NCBI GenBank assembly: GCA_019359615.1
Contig: JAHHHA010000006.1
Span: 62,001 to 126,000, forward strand
Direction: 5' to 3'
Origin: Cyanosarcina radialis HA8281-LM2
GTDB lineage: Bacteria; Cyanobacteriota; Cyanobacteriia; Cyanobacteriales; CCAP-1448
Length of the DNA stretch: 64,000 nt
Shown here in pieces: positions 5,641 through 30,069 of this stretch (position 1 is the stretch's first letter; every line of letters begins with the position of its first letter). Position numbers and translations under genes: made by a program. The notes beneath the pieces were generated by a model. The model was given only the letters and a program-made list of their open reading frames with translations. It was not told the origin of the DNA and did no database searches.

Positions 5641-5826
5641 AGTAAAACAGTTCCTCGATCTGCGGTCGGATCTAGCTACCTGCTTCGATCGAACTTAATT
5701 TCTTTAGCTAAATGTTAAATCTTAAAACATCCTAAATTAGAGCTTTTATTCGTCAAAAAGAACTATTTTAAGGATTAAGACTCAGCAATTCTCGATTTTT
5801 CTCAGCAATTTTATCTGATGCTATCT

Positions 5827-8732
<2,906 letters not shown>

Positions 8733-14495: not shown

Positions 14496-14732
14496 AAAGT
14501 ATTATGCTATCTAGGTTTGAGGGGATCGGAAGCTGTGTTTTGGCTCAAAAATCGACACACCTCGGCAAATCGCTGAAACCCTATATTTTTCGTTGAGGTG
14601 TGTCGATGCCTTACTGGGTAAGGTTTTGAGGCAGGTGCTTGGCTTATTTTTCCACTACATTTATAATGTTTTTCAGAGGTGTGTCGATTTGGCGGCTGAA
14701 ACCCTTACGGGGTAAAGGCTCCTCGACGAACT
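14496..14732 (+). promoter_or_regulatory. CRISPR leader 1 with array promoter
   Basis: About 235 bases nearly identical to leaders 2 (19592-19828) and 3 (29575-29811). Promoter elements are TTGGCT at 14639-14644, a 17-base spacer and TATAAT at 14662-14667, conserved in all three. The 12-mer GAGGTGTGTCGA occurs at 14595-14606 and 14676-14687, with its inverted copy at 14552-14563, giving a long hairpin upstream of the promoter. The leader sits at the 5' end of array 1, so the array is transcribed on the plus strand. Confidence 0.85.
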
Positions 14733-15585
14733 CCCTACCGATTGGGTTAAATCGGATTAGTTGGAAACATAGGGGGAAAATCATTCCACCAAAGATAAAT
14801 GTATGCCCTACCGATTGGGTTAAATCGGATTAGTTGGAAACTATGCCTTTGTTTTTAAGGCATAACCAGATTACAGCCCTACCGATTGGGTTAAATCGGA
14901 TTAGTTGGAAACAGTCATATGGATGTCTCCAAGAAGCCAATAGCTTCACCCTACCGATTGGGTTAAATCGGATTAGTTGGAAACAAAATTGTTGCTGCAA
15001 ATCCAATCATCAACATAAAATGTGCAACCCTACCGATTGGGTTAAATCGGATTAGTTGGAAACTCAGGGCAACCCTATGCCCTATGTACACGTCATTGCT
15101 GCCCTACCGATTGGGTTAAATCGGATTAGTTGGAAACAATCGGGCAGGAGGTACAGTCCAACCGCAATCATCAACCCTACCGATTGGGTTAAATCGGATT
15201 AGTTGGAAACGCCTGCTCCTGCTTCCAGGAGGCTTTCAAAAAATTGTGCCCTACCGATTGGGTTAAATCGGATTAGTTGGAAACAAATTTTCCAAAAGAG
15301 TTTTGGTTCATTCGATTCTTTTGTCCCTACCGATTGGGTTAAATCGGATTAGTTGGAAACTTTCCTGTGGCGAGCAACACAGCCAAAGGGCCGGTTACTA
15401 ACCCTACCGATTGGGTTAAATCGGATTAGTTGGAAACGTTCGACAATTTGCCCGAGGTGGGATCTGACAACAGCCCCTACCGATTGGGTTAAATCGGATT
15501 AGTTGGAAACATGACCTGCTAAATCGGTCTTGAGCAACTTGTACATCAACCCTACCGATCGAATTAAATTGGTAGGGTTAAAAAC
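14733..15585 (+). CRISPR. CRISPR array 1: 12 repeats, 11 spacers
   Basis: Thirty-six-base repeats begin at 14733, 14806, 14877, 14949, 15028, 15102, 15175, 15249, 15325, 15402 and 15475. A degenerate terminal repeat lies at 15550-15585. The repeat starts CCCTACCGATTGGG and ends TTAGTTGGAAAC; CCGATT and AATCGG can form a 6-bp stem with a 6-base loop. The GAAAC end is common in type III and I repeats. Spacers are 35-43 bases and all differ. Decay of the last repeat and the leader position fix the orientation as plus. It lies directly downstream of the Cmr operon. Confidence 0.98.
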
Positions 15586-16083: not shown

Positions 16084-16307
16084 GTAACGAACGGAGAATA
16101 CCCGACGCACCAACCAGAGCGCGTTCGGTCGCTAAATTACAGGAATTGGTAGCCCGAATGGATAGTCACATCGCGGACTTAGATCGACTAAACGCCCAAT
16201 TAGCCGCCGAAAATGAAAACACTGGGCGCGGAGCTTACCTCAAAAGAAGGGAACAGCGTTTAGCATCACAAGAGCCAACTGCCCAAATCGATAATTCGCG
16301 CTCTTGA
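16080..16307 (+). CDS. Small basic/helical protein of the TM-CARF operon
   Basis: A 75-residue protein read from the ATG at 16080 (MSNERRIPDAPTRARS), which overlaps the preceding stop by the ATGA arrangement; this decides the start over an upstream TTG. It has a basic N-terminus, a central helix LQELVARMDSHIADLDRLNA with heptad-like spacing, and a charged tail. It is unrecognised. The stop at 16305-16307 lies five bases before the chosen ATG of the TM-CARF gene. The three genes are therefore almost certainly one translationally coupled unit. Confidence 0.7.
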   Translation: MSNERRIPDAPTRARSVAKLQELVARMDSHIADLDRLNAQLAAENENTGRGAYLKRREQRLASQEPTAQIDNSRS

Positions 16308-16312
16308 CGAAA

Positions 16313-17146
16313 ATGAAACGAAATTCACTTGTCGAGTTAATTACCGATCCGACCAAAAACTTTCTCGCTTCCTTTGCGATCGGAACGCTGGTATTTACCA
16401 TCGTCTCTGATGGTGTCTCTTCTCTGTTCTGGGAAACTTTTGGAGATTGGTTGCAAGCCCAATTTGGCTTTGCCGATAAAGCGGCTCTTCGCTTAACCAT
16501 CGTCCCCATTCTGATATCGGTACTGTTAATTTTCATCTATGCCACGCCCTTTGCTAGGTGGCTGAGAAATCGGGTGGTGAAGTTTTTTGGCGACCCAGTT
16601 ACCGAACCGACCGTCGAACCTCTAACCGCTACCTTCCCAGGACTGATTGCCTTCATGAGTCCTAAAACAGATTCCCCTGCCGAAATAGCAATTTCACATC
16701 ACTGGAATGGCGGTCAACTACCTCATCTCGAACATTGCTGGCTGATTTGTACGGAAAAGTCTTTGCCCTTCGCCCAAAAATTAGAACAAGAAATGAGCGA
16801 TCGAGGTCTTACCCAAAAAGTAAAATTTTACTATGGTAACTATGAATTAGACGATCTAGAACATCCAGGGCAAAAAGTTAGCTTGCTAATTCCAGAAGCT
16901 CTAGTTAACGACCCGATCTATATTCAAAAGCTAGTGAACAGTATTTATGCTGACGTTCAAAAGCAAGGGTTAAACGAAGAGCAGGCGATCGCTGATTTTA
17001 CGGGTGGCAACAAACCGATGACGGTAGGCGCGATCTTAGCAGCTTGCAGCCATCCTTCGCGGCGCTTGCAATATATCAGCCAGATCGATCCTTGTCACCT
17101 GATGGAAGTGAAAATTTCCTACAAGCTTCAGCCGATTAAAAAATGA
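16313..17146 (+). CDS. Membrane-anchored CARF protein (TM-CARF, Cam1-like architecture)
   Basis: A 277-residue protein from the ATG at 16313; a TTG at 16304 would add three residues. Two hydrophobic segments at about residues 17-41 and 59-82 should anchor it in the membrane. The rest forms a Rossmann-like CARF domain: LEHCWLICTEKSLPFAQKLE near 135-155 and ADFTGGNKPMTVGAILAAC near 226-244, the latter being the DxTGGxKxM signature of CARF ligand sites. No nuclease domain is attached. It should bind cyclic oligoadenylate from the Cmr complex and act at the membrane, as proposed for Cam1 and other TM-CARF proteins. Two small proteins are encoded upstream in the same operon. Confidence 0.8.
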   Translation: MKRNSLVELITDPTKNFLASFAIGTLVFTIVSDGVSSLFWETFGDWLQAQFGFADKAALRLTIVPILISVLLIFIYATPFARWLRNRVVKFFGDPVTEPTVEPLTATFPGLIAFMSPKTDSPAEIAISHHWNGGQLPHLEHCWLICTEKSLPFAQKLEQEMSDRGLTQKVKFYYGNYELDDLEHPGQKVSLLIPEALVNDPIYIQKLVNSIYADVQKQGLNEEQAIADFTGGNKPMTVGAILAACSHPSRRLQYISQIDPCHLMEVKISYKLQPIKK

Positions 17147-19591: not shown

Positions 19592-19828
19592 AAAGTGTTA
19601 TCCTGTCTGGGTTTGAGGGGATGAGAAGCTGTGTTTTCGCTCAAAAATCGACACACCTCGGCAAATCGCTGAAACCCTATGTTTTTCGTTGAGGTGTGTC
19701 GATGCCTTACTGGGTAAGGATTTGAGGTAGGTGCTTGGCTTTTTTTTCCACTACATTTATAATGTTTTTCAGAGGTGTGTCGATTTGGCGGCTGAAACCC
19801 TTACGGGGTAAAGGCTCCTCGACGAACT
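19592..19828 (+). promoter_or_regulatory. CRISPR leader 2 with array promoter
   Basis: Nearly identical to leaders 1 and 3. Promoter TTGGCT at 19735-19740, spacer of 17, TATAAT at 19758-19763. The inverted and direct copies of GAGGTGTGTCGA are kept. Its first bases (AAAGTGTTATCCTGTCTGG) align with the 3' end of cas2 at 29575-29593 but the stop codon is lost, so this leader probably carries a short cas2 remnant. Confidence 0.85.
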
Positions 19829-20810
19829 CCCTACCGATTGGGTTAAATCGGATTAGTTGGAAACCATTGTCTGGCGTTTATAGGCAATGCCATTAAGGGT
19901 AACCCTACCGATTGGGTTAAATCGGATTAGTTGGAAACGAGCTTAACGCCTTCCATCCGGGTATTGCGGGTCATCACCCTACCGATTGGGTTAAATCGGA
20001 TTAGTTGGAAACGAAAGAGTCTACCTTAATTTGAACTTCAGCCCCTACCGATTGGGTTAAATCGGATTAGTTGGAAACCAAAAATGCTACTGTGATTTTC
20101 TCTGTTTTTCCCTACCGATTGGGTTAAATCGGATTAGTTAGAAACGAATTGGATCGGCTATTGGCGTTTCCACCGTCACCTCCCTACCGATTGGGTTAAA
20201 TCGGATTAGTTGGAAACGGTGTCGTTGCCGTCTCCTGTTTGAATGACAGGGCCCTACCGATTGGGTTAAATCGGATTAGTTGGAAACGGAAAAGCACGCA
20301 GGTTTCTGGGTGCAAACAAAGTTAACCCCTACCGATTGGGTTAAATCGGATTAGTTGGAAACAAGCGTTATGTAATCACCTTTTTTAAGGGCTTTCACAG
20401 AAACCCTACCGATTGGGTTAAATCGGATTAGTTGGAAACTTTGTACACTAGAACGCCCAGTTTTTCTGATTTTTCTACCCTACCGATTGGGTTAAATCGG
20501 ATTAGTTGGAAACGCCAAGCAAACAAAAATACCATTAAGCCAATAACCCCTACCGATTGGGTTAAATCGGATTAGTTGGAAACCTGTTCCGGCAGAATCA
20601 TCATCCCAGAGACCTTTTTCTTGCCCTACCGATTGGGTTAAATCGGATTAGTTGGAAACGTAATGGGTAATAGTACCCATTACTCCTTCTTTCTTTATCC
20701 CTACCGATTGGGTTAAATCGGATTAGTTGGAAACTCTCTGGCTAAGGCTCCGATGGCGTAAAGCTCCTTATTGACCCTACCGATCGAATTAAATTGGTAG
20801 GGTTAAAAAC
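19829..20810 (+). CRISPR. CRISPR array 2: 14 repeats, 13 spacers
   Basis: Thirty-six-base repeats identical to array 1 begin at 19829, 19903, 19977, 20043, 20110, 20182, 20252, 20327, 20404, 20478, 20548, 20624 and 20699. The repeat at 20110 has one change near its end (GTTAGAAAC). The terminal repeat at 20775-20810 is degenerate in the same way as that of array 1, and about 45 bases of 3' flank are also shared with array 1. Spacers differ from those of array 1. Transcription is on the plus strand from leader 2. Confidence 0.98.
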
Positions 20811-23087: not shown

Positions 23088-23684
23088 TTAAAATTCCCTA
23101 CGATCGCCTTGCTCTAACTGCTCGACAACTCGCTCTAATTCTTCAGCTAAAAACCGACAATCTCCAGCGGTTTTAGCTGCTTGAATGACCGAACGATAGA
23201 ACCAGAGCGTTTGCTCTTTTCCCCCTTTAAATCGACTCCAAATCTCATCACCAAGGCGATAGCGATCGGCTAAAATCGAACGAGCATTGTGCAGTTTATC
23301 TGCTAAAGATACTCGCCGCATTTCTGTATTAGAGGCGCGAAACTGCTCGATATATCTTTCTTTTCGTTCTCGCCAGGGAGGTTTGGGGATAACATCTGAG
23401 TCGGTGCAAGCTTCCACGATTCGAGCGACTTTTTCGCCAAACTTCTGCCGAATTTCTTGTCGAGTACGATCGCCACCTGCATCTTCGATCGCATCGTGGA
23501 GTAAACCCGCGATCGCTTCATCTTCATCTCCACCATCTTCTAACACTAAAGCCGCCACGCTCAACAGATGGCTGATGTAAGGAATATTCGTCCCTTTTCT
23601 CAGTTGAAAAGCATGAAGTCGGGTAGCATAAACTAAAGCTTCTTCAAAGCGATCGCCCAAAAGTAGTGTAGTTGTTGTCTTCAT
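23088..23684 (-). CDS. HD-domain phosphohydrolase, MESH1/SpoT-hydrolase-like
   Basis: A 198-residue single-domain protein with HD-superfamily motifs in the order seen in (p)ppGpp hydrolases: His39 in PYISHLLSVA, HDAIED at 63-68 (the HDxxED motif) and SLADKLHNARS near 126-136. It lacks a synthetase domain, so by analogy with MESH1 it could remove pyrophosphate from (p)ppGpp or act on another nucleotide. GGAG seven bases upstream of the ATG supports the start. It follows the WYL-type CRISPR-associated gene by 14 bases on the same strand, suggesting an operon. The substrate is not established. Confidence 0.8.
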   Translation of the reverse strand: MKTTTTLLLGDRFEEALVYATRLHAFQLRKGTNIPYISHLLSVAALVLEDGGDEDEAIAGLLHDAIEDAGGDRTRQEIRQKFGEKVARIVEACTDSDVIPKPPWRERKERYIEQFRASNTEMRRVSLADKLHNARSILADRYRLGDEIWSRFKGGKEQTLWFYRSVIQAAKTAGDCRFLAEELERVVEQLEQGDRREF

Positions 23685-23698
23685 TTTTATCTCCGCCT

Positions 23699-25084
23699 TT
23701 AATCGACATCATTGCGGTACATCTCCCAGGATTGGCTGAGATCTTTCTTCATGCGGGTTCGCAAATCCCAAGGTAAAATTACTTCCACATTCGGACTCCA
23801 AGAACGCAACCGCATGACGACATTATTTTCTTCCAAACGACTTGCAACTTGATAGTAAGCATCAGTGGGAAATTTCTGTAAAATCTTCATCAGTTGGGCT
23901 TGGCGATTTTGAGGTAGTTTAGCAGTTGTAATCGATCGCTCGGCCGCTGAAATCTCAATCGGTTTAAATTCGGGATGGCGAACTGTATTTTTAATGTATC
24001 TGCGATCGAAATCAGAATTGAATCGCAGCAATATAGTAGCTTTGGGCTGATAAAAATCAAATCCTAAAGCTTCGCCTAAAAGCAGTTGACTATCTTCGGG
24101 ACTGCGGAGTTTTTTGAGCTTATAGTCTTGTTTGAGAGCCGCTGGTACTAAATTATCCGTCCACTTTAATTCAGTGAGAGAGCGAATTCGATCGAACCGA
24201 TAGTTATACCACCATATTGGTTCTTTCTGTCTCGGAGTTTCACCGAAAGCACAGAGGTAGGGAGCGCGTTGATAATAGTAGATGCACACTGGATAGACGA
24301 CATAATCGTCGGTGATGCCTAGAGAGGCACTTCGATAGCGGATCTTAATGGGCGGGACTTCTGCTCGTTCCCAGATAGTTTTGAGTCGAGCTTGCCAATC
24401 TTCTACCAAATCGAGAGCGCCCTGGGGAACTATATAATCGTTTAAGATAAAAAACCGCCGCTGCTCGTTAATTGGTCGATAGAAGTTATCGGCTAGGATT
24501 GATAACTCTTCGTGCAGAAAGCCAAACTCGACTTCGGCTGGGGCGATTTGAGCTTTTGTCGAAGTTAAGGAATCGACTAAATCTCTTAATTCTGAAGAGG
24601 AAATTTTTTGGTAGGCTTTGCCAGATCTTTTTAACCATTGTTGGATAACTAAATCTTGAAAATCAGACCGAATCGATCGATCGCTTATTTTAAAAGGCAA
24701 AAAGACTAATATCTGTTCTAGTTGCGATCGATCTAGCTGATAATATTGCTGCACCGATTTCTGCCAATTCTCCTCAAAACTGGAGGAAAAATCGTTAAAT
24801 AACCAGGTGGATAAAGGTGTTTGCTCCAGTTGACGATCGATGTCAAATTCTCGATACCAAGTCGCACAGGAGAAAGCGCCATTTATTATTTTGTCAGCCG
24901 GAATTGTCAGGAAATAACTATTCTGAGTTTCGGGGCCATACAGCGATCGCAGGCTCGTCCACAGGCGCGTAGCTTTGTTTAAAAGCCGCTCTAATTGCTC
25001 TAGAGGCATCCGCCTCGATAAGTCAGGTACAAGCTGCCACAGAACTTCTAAACTCGGAGGAAGGTCAAAAACTGGACTCGTCAT
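23699..25084 (-). CDS. WYL-type CRISPR-associated protein (TIGR03985-like)
   Basis: A 461-residue protein from the ATG at 25084 (MTSPVFDLPPSLEVLW); the upstream extension to 25159 overlaps the divergent genes and looks non-coding. The C-terminal half carries a WYL-like domain: PPIKIRYRSASLG, VVYPVCIYYYQRAPYLCAFG, NYRFDRIRSL, and a tail (NVEVILPWDLRTRMKKDL) typical of WYL C-terminal extensions. The N-terminal half is helical and unrecognised. To my knowledge this matches a cyanobacterial CRISPR-associated family (TIGR03985). WYL domains sense ligands and often regulate CRISPR loci. It is divergent from the Csx3 operon and coupled to the alarmone-hydrolase-like HD gene. Confidence 0.7.
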   Translation of the reverse strand: MTSPVFDLPPSLEVLWQLVPDLSRRMPLEQLERLLNKATRLWTSLRSLYGPETQNSYFLTIPADKIINGAFSCATWYREFDIDRQLEQTPLSTWLFNDFSSSFEENWQKSVQQYYQLDRSQLEQILVFLPFKISDRSIRSDFQDLVIQQWLKRSGKAYQKISSSELRDLVDSLTSTKAQIAPAEVEFGFLHEELSILADNFYRPINEQRRFFILNDYIVPQGALDLVEDWQARLKTIWERAEVPPIKIRYRSASLGITDDYVVYPVCIYYYQRAPYLCAFGETPRQKEPIWWYNYRFDRIRSLTELKWTDNLVPAALKQDYKLKKLRSPEDSQLLLGEALGFDFYQPKATILLRFNSDFDRRYIKNTVRHPEFKPIEISAAERSITTAKLPQNRQAQLMKILQKFPTDAYYQVASRLEENNVVMRLRSWSPNVEVILPWDLRTRMKKDLSQSWEMYRNDVD

Positions 25085-25191
25085 GGACTCTGCATTATTC
25101 CGAAACTCTACTTCGATGATACCGACGATTGGAAACCCCCCTTTCCAGTGACATGACACAGTGAAATCGTTCGGCTAAAAGATTAAATGCC

Positions 25192-25332
25192 ATGTCCAAC
25201 CATCGCGCCATTACCCAAGCTTTATTGCGAGTCTGCCAACTCCTACCAGATGAGGTCTTAGCCAAGATCTTCCAAGCAGCTATATCAGAATTCAAACAAT
25301 TGACCCGACGAGGAACCAAAATTGATGAGTAG
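25192..25332 (+). CDS. Small helical protein coupled to the first Csx3 gene
   Basis: A 46-codon frame starting MSNHRAITQALLRVCQLLPD and ending GTKIDE. Its TAG lies inside the start region of the Csx3-ATPase gene (ATGAGTAG at 25325-25332), an overlap typical of translational coupling. Composition is that of a short amphipathic two-helix protein. No family is recognised, and no strong ribosome-binding site is seen. It is the first frame of the plus-strand operon divergent from the WYL gene. Confidence 0.45.
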   Translation: MSNHRAITQALLRVCQLLPDEVLAKIFQAAISEFKQLTRRGTKIDE

Positions 25333-26157
25333 TTATCTCATAAACGTTGACAACGATACGCTTCGAGTTAAATTGAACCTCGACGAACCAGCATCGGGCG
25401 ATCGACTGGTGCTGGATGCAGCGGCAAGGTTGCAGGAGTTAATAGATGCTGGCTGCCTGGGGGACAATTGCTCAAGATCGACGGCCCGACATCGCTGCCA
25501 GTGGCCTACACGCTAGCCCACAGATTATCTCATTTGTATGGCGCGATCGCAGTCTGCGACCCCAAGCTAGCAAAGCCAGGAAAGAAAGTTTACATTGTTT
25601 GCACCAGCCACAATCCTGACTATGAAATCGGAGAATTAATCTTTACCAATGAGTCATACAGTCAGAGTCAGCCAGCGACCGTGAAATTGGCATTTTGCGG
25701 GACGGCGGCGGCTAAACCGATGCTGATGAACGGATTAGAAGCGGCCATTAAGTCCATTGCAGGTGCGCCCTACCCTAAAGTCTATTCTGCTGGCCCGGCT
25801 TTACCTGCCAAACTAGCTAGAGATTTGAAAACTACTAAAGAAGCCATCAATTTCATTGATGTAACAGGTGGGGAACGGGAAGCTCAAATTCTGATGCCAG
25901 CAGCCACTCATGTCGTTATTGTCGCGGAAGAGAACGAAGAGGAAGTAGCAATTGTTAACCTCTGTCAGTCTCTTTCTCTGCCCATAGTGGCGATCGTTCG
26001 TTGCGACTCAAAAGCTCGATCGGACCGCATTGAAACCCAAGACGATCGATTCATCCAAGGGGTGATGCACCGCCGCCAACCCGATGAAATGGTTTCTTCA
26101 AGTCCTGTAGTCGAGGCATTAGCCAGCTTAATTGTCAATTTGGTGTGGAAGGCATGA
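25325..26157 (+). pseudogene. Csx3 (Crn3)-ATPase fusion, copy 1, with one-base frameshift and lost P-loop
   Basis: The frame starts MSSYLINVDNDTLRVKLNL and breaks at a run of five G (25459-25463). One more G would continue it as LGGQLLKIDGPTSLPVAYTL, matching copy 2 at the same place. The Csx3 part keeps the catalytic-type residues (AHRLSHLYGAIAVCDPKL and TSHNPDYEIGELI), as in Crn3 ring nucleases that cleave cyclic tetra-adenylate. The ATPase part is shorter, and the Walker A position reads FCGTAAAKPMLM with no GK[ST]. It could be a true pseudogene, a sequencing error or a slippage site. The stop overlaps the start of copy 2 (ATGA). Confidence 0.75.
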
Positions 26158-27095
26158 CGAGTTATAGGATGCAGGTAGAAGGAGATACCCTGAGAGTCGG
26201 CTTTGCTCCAGGAGTTCGGGTTAACGGCGATCGCCTGGTCGAAGATGCTTGGCTGGAGTTGGAACGGCTCATTAGTTCTGGAGAACTTTCTGGAGGAGAA
26301 CTCCTGAAGATTGACGGCGCAGCCTCTCTCGCTGTGTCCTACTCGATCGCCTATCGACTTTGCTACCCCGAAGCGAAATATGGGGCGATCGCCATCCGCG
26401 ACCCCAAAATTGGGACTAAGGGCAAGAAAACTTACATCGTGGCGGTTAGCGAATCTCCCAAGTATGCCCTCGGACAACTAATTGAAACCGACGAACCCCA
26501 GATAGAAGTTCCCAAGGTGGTGCTTTGCGGCCCGCCCCAGTCAGGCAAGTCTTGTCTGCGGGAGGGTTTAAAACAAGCGATTTTCCAGTTAGAGTTAGCA
26601 CCCTATCCCTATGTAATTACTGCTTGTCCTGATGGCGAGGGTTCTTGGTATTCCGCCGCTGCCCAAGGCGACCCCAATCTAGCTCAAAAGTTAAAGGCAG
26701 ATTACCGAGCTAAGTTTACTATGGCATTCGCTCTCCAGGCCGCTAATTGGGTACGCAGTGCTAACACCGCTCTCAACCTCATCGATACGGGAGGGAAAAT
26801 TACTAAATGCAATCGCCAGATCCTACGCGAAGCGACTCATGCCGTAATCCTCTATCGAGCCGAGCTTCAACATCAAGGCCAGCGATGGCAAAAGTATTGT
26901 CAACTTCTCAAACTACCCGTAGTGGCAACGATCGTCTCTAGGGATGAGGACGAGTGCGATCGCCTTGAGATCGAATCTCCCATTCTCATCGCTACCGTTC
27001 GCGCTTTTAAAAGAGGAGATGATATATCTTCTCGTCCGGTGGTGCAAGCTTTAGCGCGGTTATTAGTTAGTTTGGTTCCTCAATATCCTCATTAA
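26154..27095 (+). CDS. Csx3-ATPase fusion, copy 2, intact P-loop but altered Csx3 site
   Basis: A 313-residue protein from the ATG at 26154, coupled to copy 1 by ATGA. Residues 1-110 are a Csx3-like domain (MTSYRMQVEGDTLRVGF, ELLKIDGAASLAVSYSIAYR, AIAIRDPKIG). Histidines present in copy 1 are replaced here: AHRLSH by AYRLCY and TSHNPDY by VSESPKY, so ring-nuclease activity is doubtful. Residues 120-313 are a P-loop ATPase with Walker A CGPPQSGKS near 125-133 and NLIDTGGK as a probable Walker B-like strand. Csx3-AAA fusions are known in cyanobacterial type III loci. The two copies together keep one good Csx3 site and one good ATPase site. Confidence 0.8.
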   Translation: MTSYRMQVEGDTLRVGFAPGVRVNGDRLVEDAWLELERLISSGELSGGELLKIDGAASLAVSYSIAYRLCYPEAKYGAIAIRDPKIGTKGKKTYIVAVSESPKYALGQLIETDEPQIEVPKVVLCGPPQSGKSCLREGLKQAIFQLELAPYPYVITACPDGEGSWYSAAAQGDPNLAQKLKADYRAKFTMAFALQAANWVRSANTALNLIDTGGKITKCNRQILREATHAVILYRAELQHQGQRWQKYCQLLKLPVVATIVSRDEDECDRLEIESPILIATVRAFKRGDDISSRPVVQALARLLVSLVPQYPH

Positions 27096-27249
27096 CAGAT
27101 CGTAGGCCCTAGTTGAACGCAGTGAAACCCAACAAGCCCAGTGAAACCCAACACCAGTAGGGTGTGTTAGCGCAGCGTAACGCACCTCTTCGATCTTGTC
27201 CGAGGCGATCGACAAGCGATCGCTCTATTCTCCTGCTTTCAAAAACGTA

Positions 27250-29318
27250 ATGATGTCAACAATTGCTAGTCAATTTCTCAGTTTGAGTAATTTTCAACGC
27301 GCTTGGGAAAAGGTGGCAGAAAAGCGCGGTTGTGCCGGGGTAGATGGGGAAACTATCGATCGCTTCGCCAGCAATCAAACCCTGAATATTTATCAATTGC
27401 GATCGGCTGTGGAGGAAGGAACTTATCAACCCAGTCCTTGCAAGCAAGTAATTATTCCTAAAAAAGATGGCAGGCAGCGAGAATTGAAAATCCCTACCGT
27501 CCGCGATCGCATCGTGCAGCAAGCTTTATTGAACGCGATCTATCCGGCGATCGAGTCGAAATTTTCCGCCGCCAGTTTTGCTTATCGGCCCAATCTTTCT
27601 TATTTAAATGCTGTGGAAAAAGTCGCCCACTGGCGAGATTTGGGTTACTGTTGGGTTTTGGATGCCGATGTAGTTGAGTTTTTCGATCGCATCGAGCATC
27701 AAAGATTATTAAAAGCCGTTCGCCAATATGTAGAACATCCTGGCATTTTGTGTCTGATTAAATCTTGGGTTTCGGTGGGGGTACTAACCGCTGAGGGATT
27801 AGTTTTACCGCAGAAAGGAATTCCTCAAGGTGGGGTAATTTCGCCCATGCTGGCTAATATTTATCTGGATGAATTCGATCGATTTATCGATGCTTCGGAT
27901 TTAAAATTAGTCCGCTATGCCGATGACTTTTTGATATTAGCTCAGAGTCAAGAGCGAATTCGATCGGCTTATGCAGAAGTTGCCGATCTGCTTGAAAATA
28001 TGGGCTTGATGATGCACTCTCAGAAAACTCAAATTACTAGTTTTCAGCGCGGGTTTCGGTTTTTAGGTCATGGTTTTTTGGATAATGCCATATTTCCCGT
28101 AGATGCTAAAAGTGAGAAGTTGAAACCCGGCCGGGAAAAGAACGAAACTCATCCTAGTAAAAAAAAACTTCCAACCTGGAACCAGAAGCACAAACAGGCC
28201 AGGTGGCGAAGTTAGCAGTAGAAATGGAAGCGATCGCTCCAGAAATTGCTGGCGAACCTTCAGGTATTGAAGGCGATCTGAGTTCCGAACAAAAAAATTC
28301 TTGGCATCGAGAAATGGCAGCGATATATTTAATCGAACAAGGGACGACGGTTTATAAAGATTATCAGCGTTTGATTATTCACGTAGCGGAAAAGCCGAAA
28401 TTAGAAGTGCCGCTGCGAGAAGTCGAGCAAATTCTCGTTTTTGGCAATATTCAATTATCAACTCCAGTAATTAATACTTGTTTGGAGTCAAAAATACCTG
28501 TAATGTTTCTCAGTCAATCGGGGCAATATCACGGTCATTTATGGAGCGAAGAATCGACTAATGTAGAGCGCCAGTTAATTCAAATTGACAGGCGCAAAGA
28601 TGATTATTTTCAATTTAGCGTCTCCAAAGGAGTTGTTTTTGGCAAGCTGGTGAACTCCAGGCAGTTGCTCGTGCGGTTTAATCGCAAGCGCCAACTGATA
28701 GAAGTGGAAAAGGCGATCGAGGGGATCGATCGAGACATTAATTCCCTGGATGTGGTAGATAATTTAGATTCCCTGCGCGGTTATGAGGGAATTGCTGCGG
28801 CTAGATACTTCCCGGCTTTGGGGAAGTTAATTACTAATTCTCGGTTTAGTTTTTCTCAAAGGTTTCGTCAACCTCCTACGGATGAGGTTAATTCTTTATT
28901 GAGCTTTGGGTATACGCTGTTATTTAATAACGTCTTAAGTTTTATTATCGCCGAAGGGCTTTCTCCCTATTGGGGTAATTTTCATTATGGGGAGAAGCAG
29001 AAACCTTATTTGGCTTTCGATTTAATGGAAGAGTTTCGATCGCCGATCGTTGATGGTTTAGTTTTAAAGATTATCAATGGTTCTCTGTTCAAACCGTCAG
29101 ATTTCGATTTGGTGGTTAGTACGGGAGGAGTTTATCTCAACCAATCGGCTAGGCGGGTATTTCTGAAACAGTTTGAAGCTCGAATGAATGAGGAAGTTGC
29201 CCATCCCGATTTACAATCTCCGGTTACATATCGTCAGGCGATTCAATTACAGGTAAGACGATATAAACGCTGTTTGTTATCGACCGTCAAGTACGAACCT
29301 TTCTTAAGACCCGTGTGA
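27250..29318 (+). pseudogene. cas1: RT-Cas1 spacer-acquisition gene split by a frameshift at an A9 run
   Basis: The 5' frame (27250-28215) encodes a reverse transcriptase related to group II intron enzymes: KKDGRQRELKIPTVRDRIVQ, FAYRP, QGGVISPMLANIYLDEFD and the catalytic YADD at about residues 223-226. It ends shortly after a run of nine A at 28159-28167. The overlapping -1 frame continues through TSNLEPEAQTGQVAKLAVEM into Cas1 (28203-29318), with VYKDYQRLIIH, GQYHGHLW, ALGKLITNSRFSF and PVTYRQAIQLQVRRYKRCLL. A fused RT-Cas1 of about 690 residues is expected, as in RNA-spacer-acquiring type III systems. One extra A would restore it; slippage, mutation or sequencing error are possible. Confidence 0.85.
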
Positions 29319-29593: not shown

Positions 29594-29811
29594 GTTTGAG
29601 GGTATGAGAGGCTGTGTTTTCGCTCAAAAATCGACACACCTCGCCAAATCGCTGAAACCCTATATTTTTCGTTGAGGTGTGTCGATGCCTTACTGGGTAA
29701 GGGTTTGAGGTAGGTGCTTGGCTTTTTTTTCCACTACATTTATAATGTTTTTCAGAGGTGTGTCGATTTGGCGGCTGAAACCCTTACGGGGTAAAGGCTC
29801 CTCGACGAACT
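29594..29811 (+). promoter_or_regulatory. CRISPR leader 3 with array promoter
   Basis: Third copy of the leader, directly after the cas2 stop (the homology to leaders 1 and 2 starts inside cas2 at about 29575). Promoter TTGGCT at 29718-29723, spacer of 17, TATAAT at 29741-29746. GAGGTGTGTCGA is present twice directly and once inverted. Position beside cas2 suggests this is the ancestral leader. Confidence 0.85.
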
Positions 29812-30069
29812 CCCTACCGATTGGGTTAAATCGGATTAGTTGGAAACGCAATGTAAAATCCACTATTTAACATTTGTTCTTGTTCCCCTACCGATTGGGT
29901 TAAATCGGATTAGTTGGAAACTCGAAAGTCGAACAAGCAAAACCCATCTCCGATCGCAGCCCTACCGATTGGATTAAATCGGATTAGTTGGAAACACGCA
30001 ATTAAAAGCACCGTTGTAATTTGCCGGATCTTTAATCCCTACCGATCGAGTCAAACCGATTATTCGGAC
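29812..30069 (+). CRISPR. CRISPR array 3: 3 repeats plus a degenerate terminal repeat
   Basis: Repeats at 29812-29847, 29886-29921 and 29960-29995 (the third with GGATTAA for GGGTTAA) share the 36-base unit of arrays 1 and 2. A fourth, strongly degenerate copy begins at 30037 (CCCTACCGATCGAGTC). There are three spacers of 38-41 bases. This short array adjoins the acquisition genes. Two rho-independent terminators follow. Confidence 0.97.

Follow-up and report, generated by a model that had tools for sequence, protein, structure and literature searches.

The 64,000-nucleotide stretch of DNA analysed here (the window) comes from Cyanosarcina radialis HA8281-LM2 (assembly GCA_019359615.1, 6.5 Mb in 65 contigs; contig JAHHHA010000006.1, positions 62,001-126,000, forward strand) and, judged from its sequence, carries a type III CRISPR locus. 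Our subject is a pair of adjoining forward-strand genes that each combine a Csx3 domain with an ATPase domain. Copy 1 (25325-26157) and copy 2 (26154-27095) overlap by ATGA, and the start of copy 1 is itself overlapped by a 46-residue open frame on the same strand (25192-25332), so that the tandem genes and the preceding coupled frame described in the first-pass annotation are confirmed by the coordinates. The 46-residue frame belongs to no family found in Pfam (best expectation value (E) 0.067, below the cut-off), no clear relative of it was seen among the loci compared (best E 0.046), and no role for it emerged. A promoter scan gave a single site (25347-25374, within copy 1) where chance alone would give 0.4, and was not used.

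Catalytic sites of the two copies

According to the accessible parts of the study of Archaeoglobus fulgidus Csx3 (PMC7371418), one face of the dimer bears H57, H60 and H80 and the other S44, G45, R46, I49, D69 and R71; cyclic tetra-adenylate (cA4) is sandwiched by two dimers, and the active site is shared where the H60 face of the first meets the D69 face of the second. The same parts state that the dead variants H60A and D69A regain activity in vitro on mixing, and describe all three histidines as absolutely conserved among Csx3 proteins.

Copy 1 reads H/H/H at the H57/H60/H80 columns of the family alignment, retains D69 and carries K at the R71 column (site string DGP / HHH / DK). Its shortened ATPase domain aligns in the Walker A region as GTA-AAKP and has no subsequent CPDGxG block; it lacks the Walker A motif expected of a SIMIBI-class P-loop NTPase. 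Copy 2 has Y/Y/E at the histidine columns, with D69 present and again K at R71 (DGA / YYE / DK), and its Walker A motif, GPPQSGKSC, is intact. The complementary losses proposed at first reading, histidines without Walker A in one copy and Walker A without histidines in the other, are therefore borne out, and copy 2, with its Y/Y/E, is a Csx3-domain protein by descent that should not be filed on its own as a ring nuclease. No Csx3 match beyond the two copies was found in a search of the window's genome, and the histidines of copy 1 are the only full set found there.

The PADLOC Csx3-AAA profile covers copy 2 almost end to end (E 6.6e-93) and also hits the two pieces of copy 1 (E 2.7e-5 and 7.3e-39), the gene being broken in the assembly as described below. 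Pfam did not list Cas_csx3 for copy 2, and its match to the second piece of copy 1 (E 0.15) was below the cut-off. As in A. fulgidus Crn3/Csx3, copy 1 has a Csx3 domain in which H57, H60, H80 and D69 align; the archaeal enzyme differs in carrying both faces on one protein with no ATPase domain, and in having R46 and R71 where the window copies have P/A and K, the K being found in nearly all cyanobacterial relatives. The similarity of short cyanobacterial Csx3 proteins to the archaeal one is weak at the profile level: a profile of 11 of them matched five Csx3 entries in the PDB at E 0.0062 to 0.059, and a more canonical relative (L033) matched PDB Csx3 entries at 3.5e-12 to 7.7e-11. When a cyanobacterial profile was aligned with A. 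fulgidus Csx3 by HMMER, the second histidine paired with H61, not H60; the H60 register may accordingly be off by one residue, although the spacing to D69 fits H60.

Copy 2 was modelled (predicted local distance difference test score (pLDDT) 88.6), and the best structural matches, to its C-terminal ATPase domain, were MinD (1ion; Z 15.0, root-mean-square deviation 3.8 over 174 aligned residues), followed by ApbC, NifH-like proteins and ParA, with SRP, FtsY and Get3 among the Foldseek matches. The model of a fused relative (L067) agrees with this result. As modelled, the domain has a MinD/ParA/SRP-like fold, of the class that we take to be SIMIBI, and the library label 'AAA' may be wrong for the Csx3-linked ATPase: all the matches listed for the copy 2 model were of SIMIBI type, and an AAA+ fold could still lie outside that list. 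Among the matches listed for the copy 2 and L067 models there was no Csx3 structure, the ATPase domain occupying the list, and a phmmer search of the PDB with copy 2 and one short Csx3 listed no Csx3 entry.

Copy 1 begins with an ATG at 25325, and its frame is broken in a G run at 25459-25463 in the assembly, just where the first-pass annotation had placed a frameshift; the remainder is open in another frame up to a stop at 26155-26157. Breaks in G runs can be assembly errors, and the data fit either such an error or a fresh loss. Programmed slippage at this run was also considered; the window contains 61 runs of at least five G or C. Separate from the question of function, then, is the question whether the pair is failing in this genome, the copy 1 duplicate having lost its ATPase function and afterwards its frame, with the complementarity of the two copies being a stage of decay. 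Besides the frame break, such a course would fit the observations that copy 1 alone among the long domains has neither Walker A nor the CPDGxG block, that its ATPase part is the most diverged (40% identical to copy 2, at best 43% to another), and that broken ATPase remnants stand beside an intact Csx3 at four other loci (L029, L031, L160 and L178). However, aside from the break there is no stop over 277 codons, the codon-position differences are still coding-like, and the break may belong to the assembly. When neutral drift was simulated on copy 2, a mean of 4.2 stops had accumulated at 80% identity and 8.8 at 50%, with 0 of 100 runs stop-free at each of five identity levels, which argues against long neutral drift. 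The suspicion that copy 1 is decaying through further mutations thus finds no second stop to support it, although the break may be real and ATPase remnants do occur elsewhere; on balance we consider decay of copy 1 a serious possibility, though less likely than not. GK[ST] is present in 106 of the 107 ATPase domains longer than 120 amino acids (a set that includes copy 2 and omits copy 1, which was split into shorter matches), the exception being L008. An order-wide search with the second piece of copy 1 gave no other gene of its kind among the matches listed, so that within these matches a Csx3 joined to a dead, shortened ATPase was encountered in this window only.

Histidine loss in ATPase-linked Csx3 domains

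In the phylum, 49 of the 386 genomes searched gave a match to copy 2; in its family both genomes searched did, one of them being its own. Matches to the second piece of copy 1 occurred in 81 of 388 genomes at the level of the order, many of which had also matched copy 2. A scan of named genomes with copy 2 alone found no relative; with an alignment as the query it gave 134 confirmed relatives, of which the best 80 were retained. Phage records gave no match at E 1e-5. A further 40 regions were hand-picked from the listed copy 1 matches, 20 of which duplicated loci already in the set. The resulting classification set comprised 151 loci, with 31 removed as duplicates, and is skewed to Nostocales and to relatives of the query.

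With the window excluded, 49 loci hold a short Csx3 gene paired with a Csx3-ATPase gene, 27 a single Csx3-ATPase gene, and 19 a Csx3-Csx3-ATPase fusion. Ten more have a short Csx3 followed by an ATPase gene without a Csx3 domain (L024, L151, L153-L159 and L163), a two-gene form of the module, and 13 have a short Csx3 without a full ATPase gene in the stretch examined, some of these stretches being short. L028 additionally carries a histidine-poor Csx3 domain without an ATPase, and L033, a canonical-type locus, falls outside all of these classes. The paired genes are on the same strand in every case, their domains separated by -1 to 213 bases in 48 pairs and by 657 in L086. The counts for the 49 pairs leave out, besides the window, L008 (in G385), where both pair genes look damaged: the partner is truncated, the Walker A motif reads GKL for GK[ST], and further motifs are changed.

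The two kinds of Csx3 differ sharply at the histidine columns. All 72 short Csx3 proteins (49 + 10 + 13) have the three histidines, the partners in pairs among them (49/49), whereas the linked Csx3 domain of the same pairs is without at least one histidine in 44 of 49 and without all three in 30. The orthologous pairs had been proposed as the test of the loss pattern, and both sites are intact in just five of them (L054, L074, L080, L094 and L100). Single Csx3-ATPase genes are intact in 20 of 27; the others are four Synechocystis-type loci (L014, L016, and L145 and L146 from one genome), L101, L102 (cut by a contig end) and L008, with its truncated partner. An earlier count over fewer loci, with L008 and the window placed among the pairs, had linked domains lost in 45/50, partners intact in 49/50 and singles intact in 20/24. 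A naive Fisher test that ignores shared ancestry (45 lost and 5 intact with a partner, 4 lost and 20 intact without) gave p 6.6e-10, an association on which we do not rely because the loci are not independent of one another. Histidine loss requires at least seven changes on the ATPase tree, five of them within pairs. Of 19 genomes with an intact single that were searched in full, four hold another full-length Csx3 at a different place (G672, G677, G682 and G686), and in G670 a Csx3 fragment adjoins the gene.

The partner elsewhere is usually a short Csx3 without an ATPase, and the recurrent event is therefore the loss of the H60 half in the ATPase-linked copy. The earlier idea of a duplication that split nuclease and ATPase roles between subunits is in this respect only partly upheld, since a related loss pattern does recur at other loci, but not as two equal copies dividing nuclease from ATPase. 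The safest statement is one of divided labour, in which an ATPase-linked Csx3 with a short Csx3 adjacent to it has usually lost the H60 face and kept the D69 face.

The histidine-lost linked domains are far from featureless. D69, P70 and K71 are kept in all 44. In the 29 that bear R46, the residues N44, G45, R46, D69, P70 and K71 are invariant and no histidine is left, H57 having become D in 22 and H60 K in 23; 38 of the 109 columns are invariant in this group, so the D69 face does not stand alone in being conserved. The other 15 also keep D69, P70 and K71 throughout, with H57 kept in 11 and H80 in 8. Linked domains have median ratios of nonsynonymous to synonymous substitution rates (dN/dS; from 29 and 14 loci respectively, L086 omitted) of 0.147 and 0.132, close to the 0.162 and 0.155 of the ATPase domains, with partners at 0.101 and 0.092; the histidine-less linked Csx3 domains are under purifying selection. 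These values bear on the idea that, once a second Csx3 has arisen, constraint on the linked domain is merely relaxed and it persists as a tether or fold support with no role towards cA4. Two observations speak for it, namely that the linked domain is missing altogether in ten loci and that Synechocystis has lost the histidines with no partner. However, the invariance of D69, P70 and K71 across the 44 domains and a dN/dS of about 0.14 speak against it (a tether could also conserve the fold, though not obviously D69), and we consider this explanation improbable.

A different reciprocal arrangement of losses is seen within single chains. In 16 of the 19 fusions, domain 1 keeps H57 and H60 and has lost H80, and domain 2 keeps H60 and H80 and has lost H57 (the exceptions are L023, L103 and L113); 16 of the first domains retain R71, while R46 is present in 17 of the second domains and in 13 of the first. 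One fusion occurs in G386, the other searched genome of the window's family.

Origin and possible function of the pair

By alignment score, the Csx3 domain of copy 1 is nearest to the linked Csx3 domains of L072 (60%) and L074 (59%); some short Csx3 proteins are 61-62% identical to it over fewer columns, but they are without an insertion common to copy 1 and the linked domains. On the ATPase tree, copy 1 sits on a long branch, placed unsurely among singles, and forcing copies 1 and 2 into one clade gave a better likelihood and was not rejected (approximately unbiased test, p-AU 0.908). The ATPase remnant and linked-type insertion of copy 1, together with the unrejected clade, make a tandem duplication of the whole Csx3-ATPase gene the simplest origin and, from these comparisons, the likely one, in line with the first-pass annotation.

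For function, we hold it most likely, though only as a tentative choice of rather less than even confidence, that the paired genes divide the Crn3 ring-nuclease site between subunits. Because the A. fulgidus site is common to the faces of two dimers, a natural split into half-sites is plausible. Also in its favour are the residue counts from the other 49 pairs, the constraint on histidine-lost linked domains, the reciprocal losses in the fusions, and the position of this genome's one full histidine set in copy 1. The partner (here copy 1) would give the metal-binding H60 face and the ATPase-linked subunit (here copy 2) the cA4-holding D69 face, and dimers of both would stack round cA4, cut it and so terminate type III signalling. 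Lacking a functional H60 face, the linked subunit would sit at the end of the stack as a cap and might signal the presence of cA4 to its own ATPase domain. Copy 1, if made whole given its frame break, would fill the role held by a short Csx3 gene in most other pairs.

Several findings weigh against such a split. The partners keep D69 and K71 in 49 of 49 pairs, as does copy 1, and may therefore need no second subunit. The cA4-contacting residue R46 is replaced by P in 46 of 49 partners; as 23 of 27 singles show the same replacement, R46 loss does not indicate pairing, and neither window copy has R46. Ten loci pair a short Csx3 with an ATPase gene that has no Csx3 domain, five pairs retain both sites, and the frame of copy 1 is broken. 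The loci L014, L016, L145, L146 and L101 have lost histidines with no partner found, and the independent-pairs test gave too few pairs to decide the association of loss with a partner. No other Csx3 was found in the three Synechocystis-type genomes searched (G076, G093 and G584).

Next in likelihood, and a serious competitor, is an arrangement in which the partner would form a whole ring nuclease by itself, as a homomer, and the linked Csx3 would bind but not cut cA4 and would switch the ATPase, its histidines having been lost because cutting would shorten the signal. The partners indeed keep every tested site except R46, and the linked domain, itself under constraint, retains D69; in the accessible parts of the Csx15 study (PMC13148439), moreover, non-cutting Csx15 binds cA4 in stacks, and stacking can activate fused effector domains. 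However, the linked sensor is dispensable in ten loci, the ATPase is absent or broken in 13 (and in L033), and singles with all histidines presumably bind and cut. Csx15 also resembles the stack that the half-site split would require, its head-to-tail dimers sandwiching cA4 with some members non-cutting; unlike it, Csx15 has a CARF-superfamily fold and is one gene, with no ATPase domain mentioned in those parts (PMC13148439).

If the half-site split is correct, the laboratory complementation of dead H60A and D69A variants has evolved in nature, and the gene pairs in Nostoc, Anabaena and Calothrix are offered for testing it. A wider proposition, which we put forward with considerable reserve, is that Cyanobacteria have repeatedly made the shared Crn3 site heteromeric, as a short Csx3 with a Csx3-ATPase, as two unlike Csx3 domains in one chain, and here as a duplicated Csx3-ATPase, with the metal face on one subunit, the cA4-holding face on the other, and a SIMIBI-type ATPase reading or driving the off-switch. 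The present findings also provide a starting point for explaining why cyanobacterial Csx3 carries an ATPase domain. No account of natural Csx3 heteromers was found in the literature searched, most subscription papers being outside its coverage, and this is no proof that none has been published.

Many proteins annotated as Csx3 are without the histidines needed by the characterised enzyme, slr7080 of Synechocystis PCC 6803 (L179, 2501-3433) included: by eye, its residues at these positions are Q, P and R. It carries a putative Csx3 ring nuclease annotation. Its deletion was without effect on plasmid interference, according to the accessible parts of PMC9676260, a result that is neutral here. 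The known cyanobacterial Csx3-AAA proteins (Csx3' of the eLife paper, slr7080, PADLOC PDLC01045) share with the window pair the two-domain architecture and, on pSYSA and a Nostoc plasmid, the WYL and HD neighbours; unlike the present account, the accessible portions of the published ones make no mention of histidine loss or paired half-sites.

Neighbouring genes and CRISPR arrays

Divergent from the pair lies a TIGR03985/WYL CRISPR-associated gene (23699-25159, reverse strand), adjoined by a gene for an HD-domain protein (23088-23684, reverse strand) that is a RelA/SpoT-like HD_4 match. In the 72 related loci for which 2.5 kb or more of upstream sequence was available, a WYL-like gene is divergent upstream in 52 and an HD-like gene on the same strand is present in 36. 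HD and WYL genes also diverge from the Csx3 genes on Synechocystis pSYSA (L179, 222-2272) and on the Nostoc plasmid (L180, 1918-3898).

Downstream of the pair, a reverse transcriptase (RT) gene (27196-28215, forward strand) overlaps Cas1 (28203-29318, forward strand). A second frame break at this junction was considered and dropped, as relatives including L068, L081, L089 and L092 show the same overlapping frames. RT and Cas1 form one fused frame in L100 and L115, and are separate overlapping frames in the window and several relatives.

Elsewhere in the window, a Cas10/Cmr2 gene (5818-7518, forward strand), whose GGDD motif was read from the translation, is the presumed source of cyclic oligoadenylate, and a CARF protein with membrane segments (16304-17146, forward strand; PADLOC CARF8--CARF_TM) is presumed to act as an effector of that signal. 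One repeat is common to three CRISPR groups (14727-15585, 19823-20810 and 29806-30015), all of which start after an identical six bases, and the groups at 14727-15585 and 19823-20810 finish with an identical altered repeat.
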